Origin: Chionoecetes opilio
Taxonomy: Eukaryota > Arthropoda > Malacostraca > Decapoda > Majidae
Length of the DNA: 64,000 nucleotides
Direction: 5' to 3'
NCBI GenBank assembly: GCA_016584305.1
Contig: JACEEZ010000005.1
Location: 79,923 to 143,922, forward strand
Part shown: piece after piece, positions 49,570 to 62,607 of the stretch
Layout: every line of letters begins with the position of its first letter
Numbering within the stretch: position 1 is the first letter of the stretch
Position numbers and translations under genes: made by a program
The notes under the pieces: model-generated
What the model was told of the DNA's origin: nothing
What the model saw: the letters and a program-made list of their open reading frames with translations, nothing else
Databases searched by the model: none

Positions 49570-50178
49570 TTGTTCCGGGGACCCTCCGAGGTATTTTCGA
49601 CTTAGTAAGGCTCGTACAGTACAGTTTTTTAAGGCTCTAAAAAGTCCATGATAGTAAGGCCCGTACAGTACAGTTTTTTAAGGCTCGAAAAAGTCCATGA
49701 TAGTAAATTTTAATAGCAGAAAAGTGTCATAATAGTTACATAGTACACATTTTAAGGCCATTCATATAGCATATCATTCAAAGGCCAGTAATGATATAAT
49801 ATTTCATCATTAACTGGCATTTGAGTTTAAATATGCTATATGAATGAAAAAATATGTATTATGTAACTATTATGACACTTTTCTGCTATTCACTTTTTGC
49901 TATTAAAATTTACTATCATGGATTCTAGCAGAAAAGTGAATAGCAGAAAAGGGTCATAATAGTTACATAATACATATTTTTTTCATTCATATAGCATATT
50001 TAAACTCAAATGCCAGTTAATGATGAAATATTATATCATTACTGGCCTTTGAATGATTATGTAACTATTATGACACTTTTCTGCTATTAAAATTTACTAT
50101 CATGGACTTTTTCGAGCTTAAAAAACTGTACTGTACGGGCCTTAAAGTCGAAAATACCTCGAAGGGTCTCCGGAACAA
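49570..50178. mobile_element. Fold-back MITE, 609 bp
   Basis: The ends TTGTTCCGGGGACCCTCCGA and the complement at 50150-50178 are inverted. Inside, an A/T-rich block (TGTCATAATAGTTACATA, CAGTAATGATATAATATTTC) occurs four times in alternating orientation, and GTCCATGATAGTAA occurs several times. No gene is present. Confidence 0.85.
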
Positions 50179-50501: not shown

Positions 50502-51151
50502 TAGACTAGGAATATTATGTGAAGAGGCCCAGAACTCACATGAGGGGTAACGGCTTGTTACAAGCTATCACCCATACTAGGATTGAACCATGACACCTGA
50601 GCAAATATTAGCCTGGATGACACTTGATATTTTTATTTGGGACCTCACAGTGGGTTATTTTGTGTTAGAGGTCAATCGCGAAATATCAGATTTTCTCGAA
50701 AATACAAAAATGTCAATAAAATTACCAATACTGCAGTTATAAACTTATTTTTGGTGTCAAAATGAGCAGAATAACAAGCCATATTGTAAAAATATTGGTT
50801 TATGCTATAGAATTGGGAAATGTTAAAAAGAATGGCAAAAACTACTGTAATGGATTCCTAATCCTTTGAATCCTTTATAAACTATAGACGTATCGACTAT
50901 ATCTGTTGTTTATTGTTGCATCTATGATTCGATATCACGTGCATCAGTAATTTTCATAGAGGCCAATTTGGTGAGTTTAACATTTATATGCCTGCTTCAG
51001 AGGCTATTTAAGCTCTTATATTCATTAATTAGTCATATAACAATCTTGTGTGGCTCGTGATACATGTGTTATGGTATAATTCGTTACTTACGGCTGTTAT
51101 ATGAAAGAGGCTTAGGCTGATGCACAGTCACAGAGTCCTACACTGACGACA

Positions 51152-51988
51152 ATGTGTACACTAGAAACGAGGAAGGATGCTAGTCAAAAGGGTCAAACCA
51201 TCAAAGCGAACAGGCTTCTGTTCCAGCGGCTTCTTGTGGCACAGGACTCTGGACGTGATATAGACCTTAAAAGTCTTCTGAGTCATGAACTAACACCGGT
51301 ACCACTGTCATTGGCAGACACGACAGGACGCCTACGTCCTACGAATAAAGCTGCGCTCGGGAAGATCTTGGAGGATGGAGTAACTGTTGAGGTCCTGCCA
51401 AAGTCTTCGCTTAAGACATGTTTTATCATAGATGGTCAGGCATTGGTACAAGCCATTGGAAAACCAACGGGGGAAAAGTCATTTGGAGATCTGGCTGATG
51501 TCTTCAATGCATCGGTGTTCAGTCATTTCAATGAGCACTGCTCAAGAGTCGATGTGGTTTTCGATCGATATCGTATCACATCAATCAAGTCTGGGACCCG
51601 GGAAAGGAGAGAGGGGCGAGTACGTTCTATCCGGCGCAAGATCGACAGCAGAGAGATTCCACTCCCTGCCAACTGGAAGCAGTTCATGGACTTACCAGAA
51701 AACAAGGCAAATCTTACCAAGTTTCTCAGTGATCAAATAATGTTAGAGGCAAAAAAGAGCCGACCCACTTGTGAGTTGATCACTGCAGGTGGGTTTGAGG
51801 AAGAAACCAAAGTAGCATCGTCACATGGGTCTGATGTTGAACAGCTGCAATCATCTCACGAGGAGGCCGATACACGTATAATATTGCATGCCAAGGCGAC
51901 CTATATGGATGGATACGAACGGATCATAGTCTCGTGCAGGGACACCGACGTATTGGTACTGCTCACACACTTCGCGGGACAATTAATT
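51152..51988 (+). CDS. XPG/FEN-like nuclease, N-terminal part (transposon-encoded)
   Basis: The open frame from 51152 carries about 279 family residues before an inserted element changes it. Acidic positions follow the order of XPG/FEN nucleases: D94 in CFIIDGQALV, D138 in DVVFDRY, E237/E238/D240 in SHEEADTRI, and D264/D266 in CRDTDVLVLL. In FEN1 the matching series is the N-terminal Asp, the second Asp, EAEA and the DxD pair. The role would be metal-dependent cleavage of branched or nicked DNA, here presumably linked to the transposon's own movement. The ATG at 51152 is the first in the frame; proteins of this family may extend further N-terminally, so part may be missing. Past 51988 the frame reads the inserted element and ends at 52153. 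Confidence 0.75.
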
Positions 51989-52869
51989 AGAGAGAACTGC
52001 AACTCCGAAATGCCAGTGGTCGCTGGCAGTTTTAACTCACAATTTGGTGAAAAGTTGGTCAACTTGAAAGAAAAATATGGGCTTATTCCACTGCACTTAA
52101 AACACAAAAGTATAATTTTAGGAACGATTTTCTTCTATATGTATATTGTATAGAAGCCTGAGTCTGTAAAACATGCATTTAACCAAATAACCAAGTAGGT
52201 TATAGTTGAGGAGGCGAGGTAAATGTTACTCTATGATATTATATAGTCAATAACGTATGTTTAGAAGTTATCTATACCTAGGCAGTCATATTTTCCTGTT
52301 ATTATTGTGTATCAATCAGATAGAAAGCCTGGAAGTGCAATGAGTCGACGCGTGAAGTGGCAATGTTTTGATTCAATCTCCCCGCCACAATCTCCCCGCC
52401 CACCACTCCCCGCAGCGGCGTGTCGCCTCCACAATTATAACCTACATTGTCGCAGCAACAAGCCGATTTCGGCATTCTTTATTCTTCGTTTTTCCAAGGC
52501 ATTGCTTATTGTATTTTGACAAGCGTTTGCCAGACGCAGCAGTACTGTCTTAGAAAACAGTGTGAACATCACCCAAATTTTACATGCCACAATATACATG
52601 TAAAAAATATATTAAGCTTTGCTACTCGAGGCGAGTAATTTGCATTAAATTGCTATTATAGAACGTTCCATCGTAATGAATGTCATCCATATAATTAGTA
52701 GAACAACAGAAGAACTATATTTTTTGGTATTCAGATGCGGTGCATCAATGTTTATCGCGAAATTAATTTATGAAAAATATTAGTCGCGGAGCCAAAACAC
52801 AGTAGACCAACCTTTGAGTTAAAACTGCCAGCACCACTGGCATTTCTCGAGTTTCAGTTCTCTCTAATT
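51985..52869. mobile_element. 877-bp TIR element with AATT target duplication, copy 1
   Basis: The element at 51989-52865 starts AGAGAGAACTGCAACTC and ends with the complement (CAGTTCTCTCT). Near-perfect inverted repeats of about 52 bases contain a small TGCCAG...CTGGCA hairpin. AATT lies on each side (51985-51988 and 52866-52869). It is non-coding and inserted in the nuclease gene. A second copy lies at 61703. Confidence 0.9.
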
Positions 52870-53610
52870 GGAGAGCTCTGGATGAGAACTGGCACAAGGC
52901 AGGAACGGCGTTATGTGGCTGTGCACGACATACAGTTGACACCGACCATGCAGCGTAACATCCTGGTGTACCATGCGGTTACAGGATGTGACACAGTCAG
53001 TCAACCAAGTGGACACGGGAAAAAGACGACATGGAAGGTATTCCAGCAACATGGAGCATTGCTTGATGACCTCGGACGTGGCACGCTGTCAGAATCCACC
53101 ATACGGAGTGTGGAAGAGTTCTTCTGCCCGATTTACTCACCAGCTTCGGACGAAACTAACATCAACGATGTGCGATACCGCATGTTTCAAAAGGGCACCA
53201 AAGACCAAGAAAAGCTTCCGCCAATTCGAAAATGTCTTCAACAACACATCAAACGCGCACACCACCAGGCTCAGGTGTGGTTCCAGGCAGATGTACCAAT
53301 CCCTGAAATCGAGTCGCCCATTGGAAGTGGATGGTACAAGGATGCTACGAGGAGACTACACACACACGTCAGTGTGGACGATCCTCTGCCAAACGAGTTC
53401 ATAGACATAGTTTGCTGCAAGTGCAAAAATTGTGCAACTTCCAGATGCTCTTGTAGGGCCAAGAACTTTAAGTGCATAGCAGCATGTACCTGTAATAACG
53501 GAGTGTGTCACAACCCATACAGTGTGGCAATTGAAACGGACTTGAGTGACTTAAACACGACATTCTTTCATTTCATTTCATGTACATGTAAACTTGCATA
53601 TATGCAATGA
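52866..53610 (+). CDS. XPG/FEN-like nuclease, C-terminal part with CXC cluster
   Basis: The frame resumes after the inserted element with GELWMRTGTRQERRY. It then has YHAVTGCDTVS, equivalent to the GCD(Y) Asp that closes the XPG/FEN active site. A region without known motifs follows (about residues 45-170). Near the end lies a cysteine cluster, CCKCKNCATSRCSC then KCIAACTCNNGVCHNP. Its spacing (CxC, C, CxC, x6, C, x3, CxC, x4, CxN) resembles one CXC repeat of TSO1/tesmin-type DNA-binding proteins. The stop is at 53608-53610. The frame has no other internal stops, so decay is slight. Confidence 0.75.
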
Positions 53611-54177
53611 TGCGCCTTTTTCGTCCATCGTTCACTATTGCGTTACTTAAATTTTCACTAGATGTATGTTATGTTTGTAATAAGTAATTAGATCTACTCA
53701 TTATTATAGCATACACCAATATTTTTACAATATGGCTTGTTATTCTGCTCATTTTGACACCAAATATAAGTTTGTACCTGCATTATTGGTCATGCTATTG
53801 ACATTTTTGTATTTGCGAGAAAATCCGATATTTCGCGATTGGCCCCTTTTCATATAATATTCCTAGTCTATACTCATTATCATAGTATAAAGCAATATTT
53901 ATACAATATGACTTGTTATTTTGCTCGTTTTGACACTAAAATAAAGTTTGTAACTGCAGTATTGGTAATTTTATTGACATTATTGTATTTTCGAGAAAAT
54001 CTGATATTTCGCGATTGACCTCTTTCACAAAATAACCCACTGTGAGGTCCCAAATCAAAATAGCAAGTGTCATCCAGGCTAATATTTGCTCAGGAGGTGT
54101 CATGGTTCAATCCTATCATGGGTGACAGCTTGTAACAAACCCCTCATGTAAAATTTTGAGATTATATTCCTAGTCTA

Positions 54178-55435
54178 TTGGTATACCTTTACAATAAATC
54201 CTTACTCGTAGAAATTGTGATTTTTCAAAGTGGTTCATATCAAATGGAGTCATTCATACTTAGGCGTCACCAAATACTATGCAATAGCTCCAAACAATAT
54301 CGAGGCAATTACTACGGTCGCAATTGACTTACAGCCTTTGAGTATTGTTTGTATACTAAGCCTTTCGCTATATTATAGGTTTTCTTTCAAATACATTATA
54401 TCTAATAGTTGACTGCCGCAGATTTTTTTATTATGCGTACACATGTATTGATCTAGTGGGAAGTATTGCGCTGTATTACCATTATCACATATTTTGTTTA
54501 GTAATCATGCCTGTTTATCCTTAGTAAACATTTAAATCTTTACTTATTGTTGAGAGCAGTTGTATTGTCTTGTTCTCTCATACCCCACGCCTCAATTTGT
54601 CGTTCAGGAAGCGTGGAGTTCGAGAGTACAAGTAAGTACAACTCCCAGCTATCAGGAGATATATAAATGTTTATGGAGGTTAAACAGGTGTGATCATTCA
54701 ACAAAATTTGTGATGATGGTTGTACAGAGAAGTACTTACCCACAAAATAAATCAGTGTACATATAATACAGTTATAACTGCGTCACTCAAATGATCTGAG
54801 ATAATTTAGATTTGCAAGGATAGTATACAAACAAGACTTAAATCTGCATATTTGAAAGAAAAAAAATGCTTAGTTTAGCAAGACCTGCTTTAGAACAAAT
54901 ATTGAAATCATTTATTTAAAGCAGTTTTAGTATTGAACTGAACATACCTCATCAAAGATTTAGTTACATAGAACTGTGATAATAATAATAGCAATATTAT
55001 GAAATTCTTAACTGCGGCTCCTAAATCACTATTCGTAAGCTTCATGATTTTGTGATAATTATAATACGAAAATACTAATGTCTTTTCTCGAAATTAAAGT
55101 CAAGTGCGATCAGTAATTCTGCTCAGTCTTGAAAATGGGTCTTAAAGTATCTACCGATTCGCCTCACTTTGTTAAATGAATATTTCTTACTGAACCATTA
55201 CAATATTGTTTGTCCCAAAAACTGTGTCCAAGCTAATATTGAACGGATGTGGTAATGGACAAAGTGTATTTATACTCACTACTGAAGAGGAGGAAGAGAA
55301 GGGGCGGCGTACGCGGCACAATCTTCGTTCATAAGGGCCTGTTGGAAACCACAACAATAAGGTAATGTAATATTCAGAGAAATTGCACCTTTTACAACAC
55401 TTACAATGAATGTATGTGAAGGTAAGTATTCAAGG
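54178..55435. other. No gene supported
   Basis: A/T-rich sequence. A short - strand segment at about 55280-55350 (ALMNEDCAAYAAPSLPPLQ, preceded by a TTTCCAACAG acceptor) could be a terminal exon, but the evidence is weak. Confidence 0.35.
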
Positions 55436-58194: not shown

Positions 58195-59040
58195 CCTCCA
58201 CCACATCCACACAGTAGCGTAGCGAGGTATCTATCGATGGGCCCCCTGAGGGGGGGCACATCTGTGTATGGGGGGGCACTATGGCAAGCATGGAGCTCAG
58301 GGAGATTCTGATCTATAATAATATAAGCGAAAGTGTGTGTCTGTGTGTGTGTGTGGTATAGGTTCCGCCCCCGTGTGAATCCCATCAATGGCAGTTTGGA
58401 ACCAGGTTGACCAGGGAGGTTTAACCCATTTATGGATGATCGATCATTATTTTTTTTAGTAGGCCTATTAGCGAGAATGTGAGAAAAAAAGTGGGTTGCA
58501 GAATTGAGGAAACCTTGATGTAGGTTTGAAGGGTAATGGTGAGGAATGGTGGGGTGATGGGTGTGGGGTGATGGGTGAGTGAATAGGGTGGGGGGTGAGG
58601 GTGATGGGTGAGGGAATAGGGGGGGGAGATGGGTAATGGGTGAGTGAATGGGTGTGTGGTGAGGTAATGAGTGAGGAATGGGTGGGGGTGATGGTTAATG
58701 GGCGAGTGAATGGGTTGGGGGTGATGTGCAAGGGTTGGCGTTAATACATACATTTCTACATCCATGATTTCAGGAAAGTTAGAAGGGGCTATCTGGAGAG
58801 TCTGTGTTTGGTGGGCCGTAGGCCCACCAATAGCCCTCCGCAGGAGCTAGCCAAAAAGTACGCCCGGGGGGCAGCTTTGCGGCTAGTGCCACATAAAAGG
58901 GTATTAGGGTATGTCGTCAGTCACAAGTCCAAACAGATTACGGCAGCCATGGCCAGTGGGAGGGGGTCACCGGGGGGGTTCCGCCTCTGGATTCTCACGT
59001 TCCCCCCCGTAGCTACGCCACTGGCTATAGCCGATCAAAT
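58195..59040 (+). mobile_element. hAT-like composite repeat, copy B (holds a Helitron)
   Basis: It is the reverse counterpart of 44405-45118: CAGTAGCGTAGCGAGGTATC at 58212 and GTAGCTACGCCACTG at 59008-59022, with the shared GGCTATAGCCGATC beyond the end. Helitron copy 4 is inserted at 58312-58886. Confidence 0.75.
58312..58886 (+). mobile_element. Non-autonomous Helitron, copy 4
   Basis: It starts TCTATAATAATATAAGCG after A (58311) and ends GCGGCTAG before T (58887). The hairpin is degraded (CGCCCGGGGGGCAG). It is shorter than the others, with a rearranged minisatellite. The empty site is available in the other copy of the host repeat (44969-44983). Confidence 0.9.
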
Positions 59041-61212: not shown

Positions 61213-62607
61213 CAGTGATTCTTAACCTTTTTACCACCACGCCCCCGTTAGTAGTTGGTTCTTGCCTCCATGCCCTCCTTCACTTCTTCAACCAAGATAT
61301 ATCAAAACAATCCAGAATCAGAAAGAAAACAGAAAAATGCGTGTTTTTAGCACTATTATTGTGCACATAATTACAAATTTACACCATAGTAGATTTAGTT
61401 AAGATCAAGTTTAAGGGCCACCGCACACCAGAAGCTACGCGCTCTAATAATCATTATTGAAATAACAGTATTAATGACAATGATAATAACAAAAAATACC
61501 ATTGCATAAATATCTACGTAGTGAAATATGGCAAGGCGTCACCGCAGAGTTGTTCAGCCACACTTGCTTCTCTGTAGCGACTTTCTTCGCTCACCCTCGC
61601 GAGTGAGCTTTATGTTAAAGCGAAGGCCGAGCTTCAAGTTAAATACTTGGCAGTTCTTCCTTTTTCTCTTTTCTCTCTTGGCTCACGCCCCCCTAGGTAA
61701 TTCGAGAGAACTGAAACTCGAAAATGCCAGTGGTCGCTGGCAGTTTAAACTCACAAGTTGATAATAAGTTGGTCTACTGGAAAACAAAATATGGGCTTAT
61801 TCCACTGCACTTAAAACACAAAAATATAATATTAAGAACGATTTTCTTCTATATGTATATTGTGTAGAAGCCTGATTTTGCTAATCATGTATTTAACCAA
61901 ATAACCATGAAGGTTATAGTTGAGGAGGCGATGGAAATGTTACTCTATGATATTATATAGTCAATAACGAATGTTTAGAAGTTAATTATACCCAGGCAGT
62001 CATATTTTCCTGTTATTATTGTGTATCAATTAGATAGAAAGCCTGGAAGTGCAATGAGTCGACGCGTGAAGTCGCAATGTTTTGATTCAATCTTCCCGCC
62101 ACAATGCGCGGCATGCCGCCTCCACAATTATAACCTACTTGGTCGCAGCAACAGAACGATTTCGGCATTTTATATTCTTCTTTTTTCCAAAGCATTGTTT
62201 ATCGTATTTTGACAAGCGTTTGTCAGACGCAGCAGTACTGTCTTAGAAAACAGTCTGAACATCGCCCCCAATAAAACATGCTACAATATACATGTAAAAA
62301 ATATATTAAGCTTTGATACTCGAGGCGAGTAATTTGCATTAAATTGCTATCCTAGAACGTTCAATCGTAATGCATGTCATCCATACAATTAGTAGAACAA
62401 CAGAAGAACTATATTTTTTGGTATTCAGATGCGGTGCATCAATATTTATCCCAAAATTAATTTATGAAAATACGAGTCGCGGAGCCAAAACAGAGTAGAC
62501 CAACCTTTGAGTTAAAACTTCCAGTGGCATTTATCGAGTTTTAGTTCTCTAGAATTACCCACGCCCCCCTAGGTAATTACCCACGCCCCCCAGGTTAAGA
62601 ACCCTTT
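61213..62607. mobile_element. hAT-type MITE in arm B, interrupted
   Basis: It begins CAGTGATTCTTAACCTTTTT and ends CCAGGTTAAGAACCCTTTC, with TCTATAG- and TATATAG-like flanks. It is the same element as in arm A (39550-40119), here split by the AATT-type element. Confidence 0.65.
61699..62556. mobile_element. 850-bp TIR element with AATT target duplication, copy 2
   Basis: The element at 61703-62552 runs from CGAGAGAACTGAAACTCG to the inverted end TTTTAGTTCTCTAG. AATT lies on each side (61699-61702 and 62553-62556). It matches 51989-52865 over its whole length, including GCAATGAGTCGACGCGTGAA and GAGGCGAGTAATTTGCATTA. Non-coding. Confidence 0.92.

Follow-up and report, generated by a model that had tools for sequence, protein, structure and literature searches.

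We analyzed a 64,000-nt stretch of the Chionoecetes opilio genome (contig JACEEZ010000005.1, positions 79,923 to 143,922; hereafter the window), in which a DNA transposon lies at 50502-54178. It is highly probable that the transposon belongs to a recently spread, likely AcademX-type family and that this copy, likely non-autonomous, carries an internal deletion: the half of its protein with an Asp-Asp-Glu (D-D-E) triad was lost, and a predicted nuclease with a CXC-type cysteine cluster was left. The copy would thus look like a nuclease without a transposase because its D-D-E half was deleted, and the nuclease-only look would be a deletion product. We filed the transposon as a new family within an already known kind, likely AcademX, and not as a novel kind.

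An initial annotation, made from the sequence alone, had described inverted ends of about 310 bp around a gene. We located them as three pairs of arms (50502-50523/54156-54177, 50552-50598/54095-54141 and 50596-50808/53882-54094) that are 86-93% complementary. Two open reading frames (ORFs), 51116-52153 and 52774-53610, together read as one nuclease-CXC protein. The acidic motifs noted earlier in XPG/FEN order were all found in these ORFs, namely IIDG (D codon at 51431), VFDRY (D at 51563), EEAD (51860-51871), DTD (51941-51949) and GCDT (D at 52990), as was the terminal cysteine cluster. The frame had also been called nearly intact, and this did not hold: an 877-bp insert splits the gene, the N-terminal half is gone, and one base is missing before the usual stop. 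That base was present, in the same context, in 8 of the 11 sister copies displayed, and without it the window frame overruns the usual stop. The observation that no DDE region is visible was correct. Tblastn of 15 longer relatives against the 64-kb window matched the linker, nuclease and CXC parts, and the D-D-E half was not detected beyond two weak matches of 27 residues at 58944-59024 (E = 0.36 and 0.93).

The nuclease fold was reached solely by structure prediction, since the searches that used only sequence failed. The Pfam scan of the two window ORFs gave no family; phmmer and a profile of 67 aligned relatives gave only chance matches against PDB sequences, and no XPG or FEN family was among 25 of the 26 Pfam families listed for these 67 (68 relatives were selected, and all but P0188 entered the alignment). 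The predicted models have an XPG/FEN-type fold, and that of P0001, which is 91% identical to the window product, resembles EXO1, FEN and XPG. Foldseek support was modest, with 1.2e-4 as its lowest E-value and 7 matches at or below 0.001; the clear separation of the EXO1/FEN/XPG match came from VIA-align. Among the aligned relatives the acids are conserved in FEN order. We therefore describe the remaining half of the window copy as a predicted XPG/FEN-type nuclease with a CXC-like tail. Of the checks proposed at the outset, the profile search did not name the protein, while the predicted fold agreed with the suggested XPG/FEN identity. Unlike the EXO1/FEN1/XPG 5' nucleases, with which it shares approximately 11-16% identity in the compared rows and no match at the level of PDB or Pfam sequences, this nuclease forms part of a transposon protein that has a CXC tail. 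The tail resembles Tesmin/TSO1 CXC (Pfam TCR) in its cysteine pattern, and UniRef gives that name to P0001, P0003 and P0171. TCR was matched in 10 of the 67 aligned relatives at E ≤ 1 (P0197 with 25.4 bits, cut-off 23.5), whereas the Pfam scan found no TCR match in the window ORFs, P0001 or P0003.

Longer relatives carry what the window copy lacks. Their gene order is a DUF6589-type domain, the nuclease and then CXC, and named sources with both halves include Porites, Phaedon, Frankliniella and Nucella. Among ten proteins scanned, Pfam DUF6589 was found in P0138 (above the cut-off) and P0136 (just below it). It was found in all six long relatives (16.8-31.4 bits, cut-off 27) and, at E ≤ 1, in 10 of the 67 aligned nuclease sequences. 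Among the 44 relatives with at least 1,380 residues, conservation is 97% or more at D482, D485, D647 and E885 (P0232 numbering), and likewise at C136, H185 and C188 of the additional N-terminal Cys/His region that the relatives of approximately 1,530 residues (P0232, P0238, P0291) have. Judged from this conservation, the DUF6589-like half is likely the transposase core. When the P0138 model was compared with known structures in search of a DDE match, the range covered by the listed rows was the nuclease part, 467-828.

Academ is counted among the DDE/D superfamilies (PMC10294476, in the accessible part of its text). AcademX is a lineage of Academ DNA transposons described by Kojima. It makes 3- or 4-bp target-site duplications (TSDs), while AcademH makes 9- or 10-bp ones, a difference tied to nuclease versus helicase (PMC10045372, accessible text). 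The transposon studied here resembles AcademX, as far as that text describes it, in its terminal inverted repeats, its nuclease-bearing protein and its TSDs, which are 3 bp long. It differs in that the window copy has no D-D-E half and in the CXC tail, which the accessible text of PMC10045372 does not mention for AcademX. AcademH belongs to the same superfamily and, according to the same part of that source, encodes a helicase and makes 9-10-bp rather than 3-bp duplications; a Pfam scan of the six long relatives yielded no helicase family at E ≤ 0.1. The pointer to Academ given in the initial annotation is therefore supported by architecture and TSD length. We consider it improbable that the transposon represents a related, separate DDE superfamily outside Academ which also has an XPG-type nuclease. 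The likeness to Academ is known by description and not by sequence, Pfam labels the N-terminal half only as DUF6589, and the name DUF6589 was not found in the literature searched, all of which would suit such a superfamily; the nuclease and the 3-bp TSD nevertheless fit AcademX as the accessible text of PMC10045372 describes it. This architecture was not found described in the literature searched, which covered papers and sources other than subscription papers and Repbase.

Further, we compared the window copy with its sisters in the 1.94-Gb genome. Forty of 422 first-look candidates for the nuclease part were scored, the window copy among them, with 96-100% identity. That query contained 66 bases of the 877-bp insert; a cleaner 601-base query gave 257 candidates, the figure used below. 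We read 20 sister copies, approximately 9.4 kb each, chosen as best-scoring and not at random (C6468, near a contig start, was passed over). All 20 keep more upstream coding sequence than the window copy: measured on L018 as the right-hand reference, whose own right end lies outside the measurement, their right arms start at 1-1382, and that of the window copy at 1429. L012 and L017 match P0137 from approximately residue 190-198 to 919 in a single tblastn stretch, while L018 and L025 reach furthest upstream of the 20 (from approximately residue 558 of P0232). A second set comprised eight loci (L029-L036) around the N side of the D-D-E half, one of them at the place of L025. L033 covers the regions of all three motifs together with the beginning of the nuclease; L030 keeps ADNIDI, TLDEQLY and ALEHVN and has lost the nuclease. 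The second D was D in 10 of 10 rows (9 places), and the position of E was E in 15 of 19 rows (14 places), with three rows unreadable. The view that a DDE region had been deleted thus gained support, since the sister copies hold parts of the D-D-E half upstream of the nuclease.

All 20 sisters and the window copy have an internal deletion relative to the composite, and the left and right ends of the deletions are distinct except in L011 and L020. On the left of the junction in the window copy, the leader continues as GCTGATGCAATGTGACA in five sisters; on the right the coding stretch is preceded by AAATTG in 11 copies displayed, and L010 and L014 belong to both groups. Read in frame by eye, the stretch past the junction encodes a linker peptide resembling the one in the longer relatives. 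Short unmatched filler stands at some junctions (approximately 66 bases in L010). L011 and L020 lie on contig C2109, approximately 54 kb apart in opposite orientation, with common flanks, target duplication and deletion junction. They are probably one duplicated site, and their arrangement suggests an inverted segmental duplication.

These data bear on a second alternative, a family without any DDE transposase, moved by the XPG/FEN-like nuclease alone. First-look counts were 26 for the N side of the D-D-E half (618 bp), 129 for its C side (528 bp), 257 for the nuclease (601 bp), 261 for CXC (601 bp) and 569 for the terminal repeat (308 bp). They are rough because only part of the candidates was scored (26, 40, 40, 40 and 40, respectively). 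The fall from the nuclease and CXC toward the D-D-E side is what such a family would show, and it means that many copies lack much of that half. However, the half is kept at different lengths with deletion ends that differ between copies, L030 lost the nuclease instead, and no purifying selection is seen on the nuclease part of individual copies. Piecemeal, copy-by-copy loss indicates that the form which spread had the D-D-E half. We therefore regard a DDE-less family as very unlikely, and the earlier suggestion that a nuclease might replace a DDE transposase as the main product was not supported.

We assessed the age of the family and selection on the nuclease-CXC part in the 21 copies. Divergence from the majority sequence was 0.85-2.19%, except for L011 (5.39%), where the value probably reflects misalignment around an internal insertion. 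Most changes were private; 263 were replacement and 101 silent, a ratio of 2.6, and the absence of selection would give 2.4-2.9. Leaving aside L011, L020 and the window copy, the counts were 210 and 77 (ratio 2.7). By this ratio, purifying selection on a nuclease-only product was not found in single copies. Stops and frameshifts occur in many of the 20 sisters, while the majority nuclease frame is open over 509 codons. Low divergence, private neutral-looking changes and an open majority frame suggest that an intact source spread recently and that single copies have drifted since. The claim of recent activity is therefore supported for the family (with one outlier) and not for the window copy, whose D-D-E half is lost and whose gene is split. 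The same data make a domesticated nuclease-CXC host gene, with ends left from its transposon origin, scarcely credible. P0001, P0003 and P0004 are predicted C. opilio genes, which would suit a host gene; the closest named proteins are from this species (83-94% identity). Against this, the genome holds at least 39 other near-identical copies, many of those read carry stops, frameshifts and neutral-looking changes private to them, and an insert splits the window gene. Catalytic acids are altered in two of these predicted genes (IIAG at residues 92-95 of P0001, DTG in P0003), so the gene-model names cover decayed copies.

Direct repeats of 3 bp adjoin the ends in 12 of 15 copies (14 sisters and the window copy), or at 11 of 14 independent sites. 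L009, L013, L019, L025 and L027 (no right end in the aligned stretch) and L028 (last bases missing) were left out of this count. When the flanks were re-paired 20,000 times, the mean was 2.2 matches and never more than 8, versus 12 observed. A 'TA' duplication, with ends read as TA|GACTAGG, was dropped because the 3-bp repeats adjoin TAGAC. Genomic copies, which had been expected to supply the N-terminal part and the target duplication, gave partial D-D-E stretches and 3-bp duplications at the sisters, while the window copy, flanked by CTG and TTG, has no matching duplication. The least probable alternative, that the ends are unrelated miniature inverted-repeat transposable elements (MITEs) around a captured or host nuclease gene, draws on the abundance of the end sequence (569 first-look candidates, 40 scored) and on the unmatched flanks of the window copy, and is contradicted by 14 sister copies (13 sites) in which both ends enclose this gene; 12 of the 14 have 3-bp TSDs.

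Several observations weigh against our interpretation of the window copy as a deleted AcademX-type transposon. Three of the 15 copies have no matching 3-bp TSD (the window copy, L018 and L021). No full-length copy, nor an intact D-D-E triad together with the nuclease, was among the copies read in this genome, and 'deleted' was judged against a composite of several copies. L018 and L025 still do not include the first D, L033 has a stop in the first D motif, and L009 reads K at the position of E. The P0138 model does not contain the first D, and the D-D-E part is a putative transposase core. Membership in AcademX was judged from architecture and TSD length, against the published description.

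P and hAT elements acquire distinct internal deletions, with both ends kept, when gap repair after excision is interrupted. The deletions described here may have arisen from interrupted repair after excision in the same manner. The D-D-E part would cut and join the transposon ends, the FEN-like domain might trim the 5' (non-transferred) strand or 5' flaps at the ends or the target, and the CXC tail may contribute to DNA binding. Deleted copies would be moved, if at all, by protein produced elsewhere. A speculative extension, which we consider rather unlikely, makes the FEN-like domain a strand-processing partner of the D-D-E transposase: 3' ends would be joined, the old flanks left as 5' flaps and removed by the built-in nuclease, which would give clean cut-and-paste with a 3-bp duplication, and the nuclease, acting on the donor or the gap, would incidentally have gutted every copy read. 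A young, multi-copy, nuclease-bearing family offers a setting for testing the unexplained role of XPG/FEN nucleases in DNA transposition. The results also suggest that pieces of such transposons account for at least some of the crab and coral proteins annotated as 'Tesmin/TSO1-like CXC', for example P0001, P0003 and P0171.

Features of the transposon copy in the window (positions in the window)
Feature	Position	Strand	Remarks
5' terminal inverted repeat	50502..50809	+	begins TAGACTAGG; same left end in 20/20 sister copies read
5' leader	50810..51123	+	common with sister copies to varying points
Internal deletion junction	51123..51124	+	approximately 1.4 kb of upstream coding sequence of L018 absent here
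XPG/FEN-like nuclease coding, part 1	51124..51984	+	first Met codon 51152; IIDG, VFDRY, EEAD, DTD; predicted fold of 91%-identical P0001
Inserted separate element and flanks	51985..52869	+	interrupts the nuclease gene, not belonging to it
Nuclease coding, part 2 (GCDT)	52870..53412	+	
CXC-type cysteine cluster	53413..53519 (approx.)	+	read from sequence
Tandem partial copy of right terminal repeat	53695..53870	+	
3' terminal inverted repeat	53871..54178	+	ends CCTAGTCTA

At the right end of the window copy the extra tandem partial repeat is 86% identical to the terminal repeat (53695-53849 versus 53871-54025). The inserted element (51989-52865, 877 bp) has inverted ends of approximately 64 bp with AATT on either side. 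Further copies were found in sister copy L020 (5479-6366 as oriented, 99.2% identity) and at 61698-62556 of the window (88.6%). AATT flanks the element at all three places seen. Two of the three copies sit inside copies of this transposon, and the empty sites in L010 and L014 are AAGT and AGTT, not AATT. Directly left of the transposon, at 49570-50178, inverted repeats are densely nested, among them ones of 80 nt (100%), 68 nt (97%) and 51 nt (98%), in a pattern that resembles a fold-back element or nested MITE.
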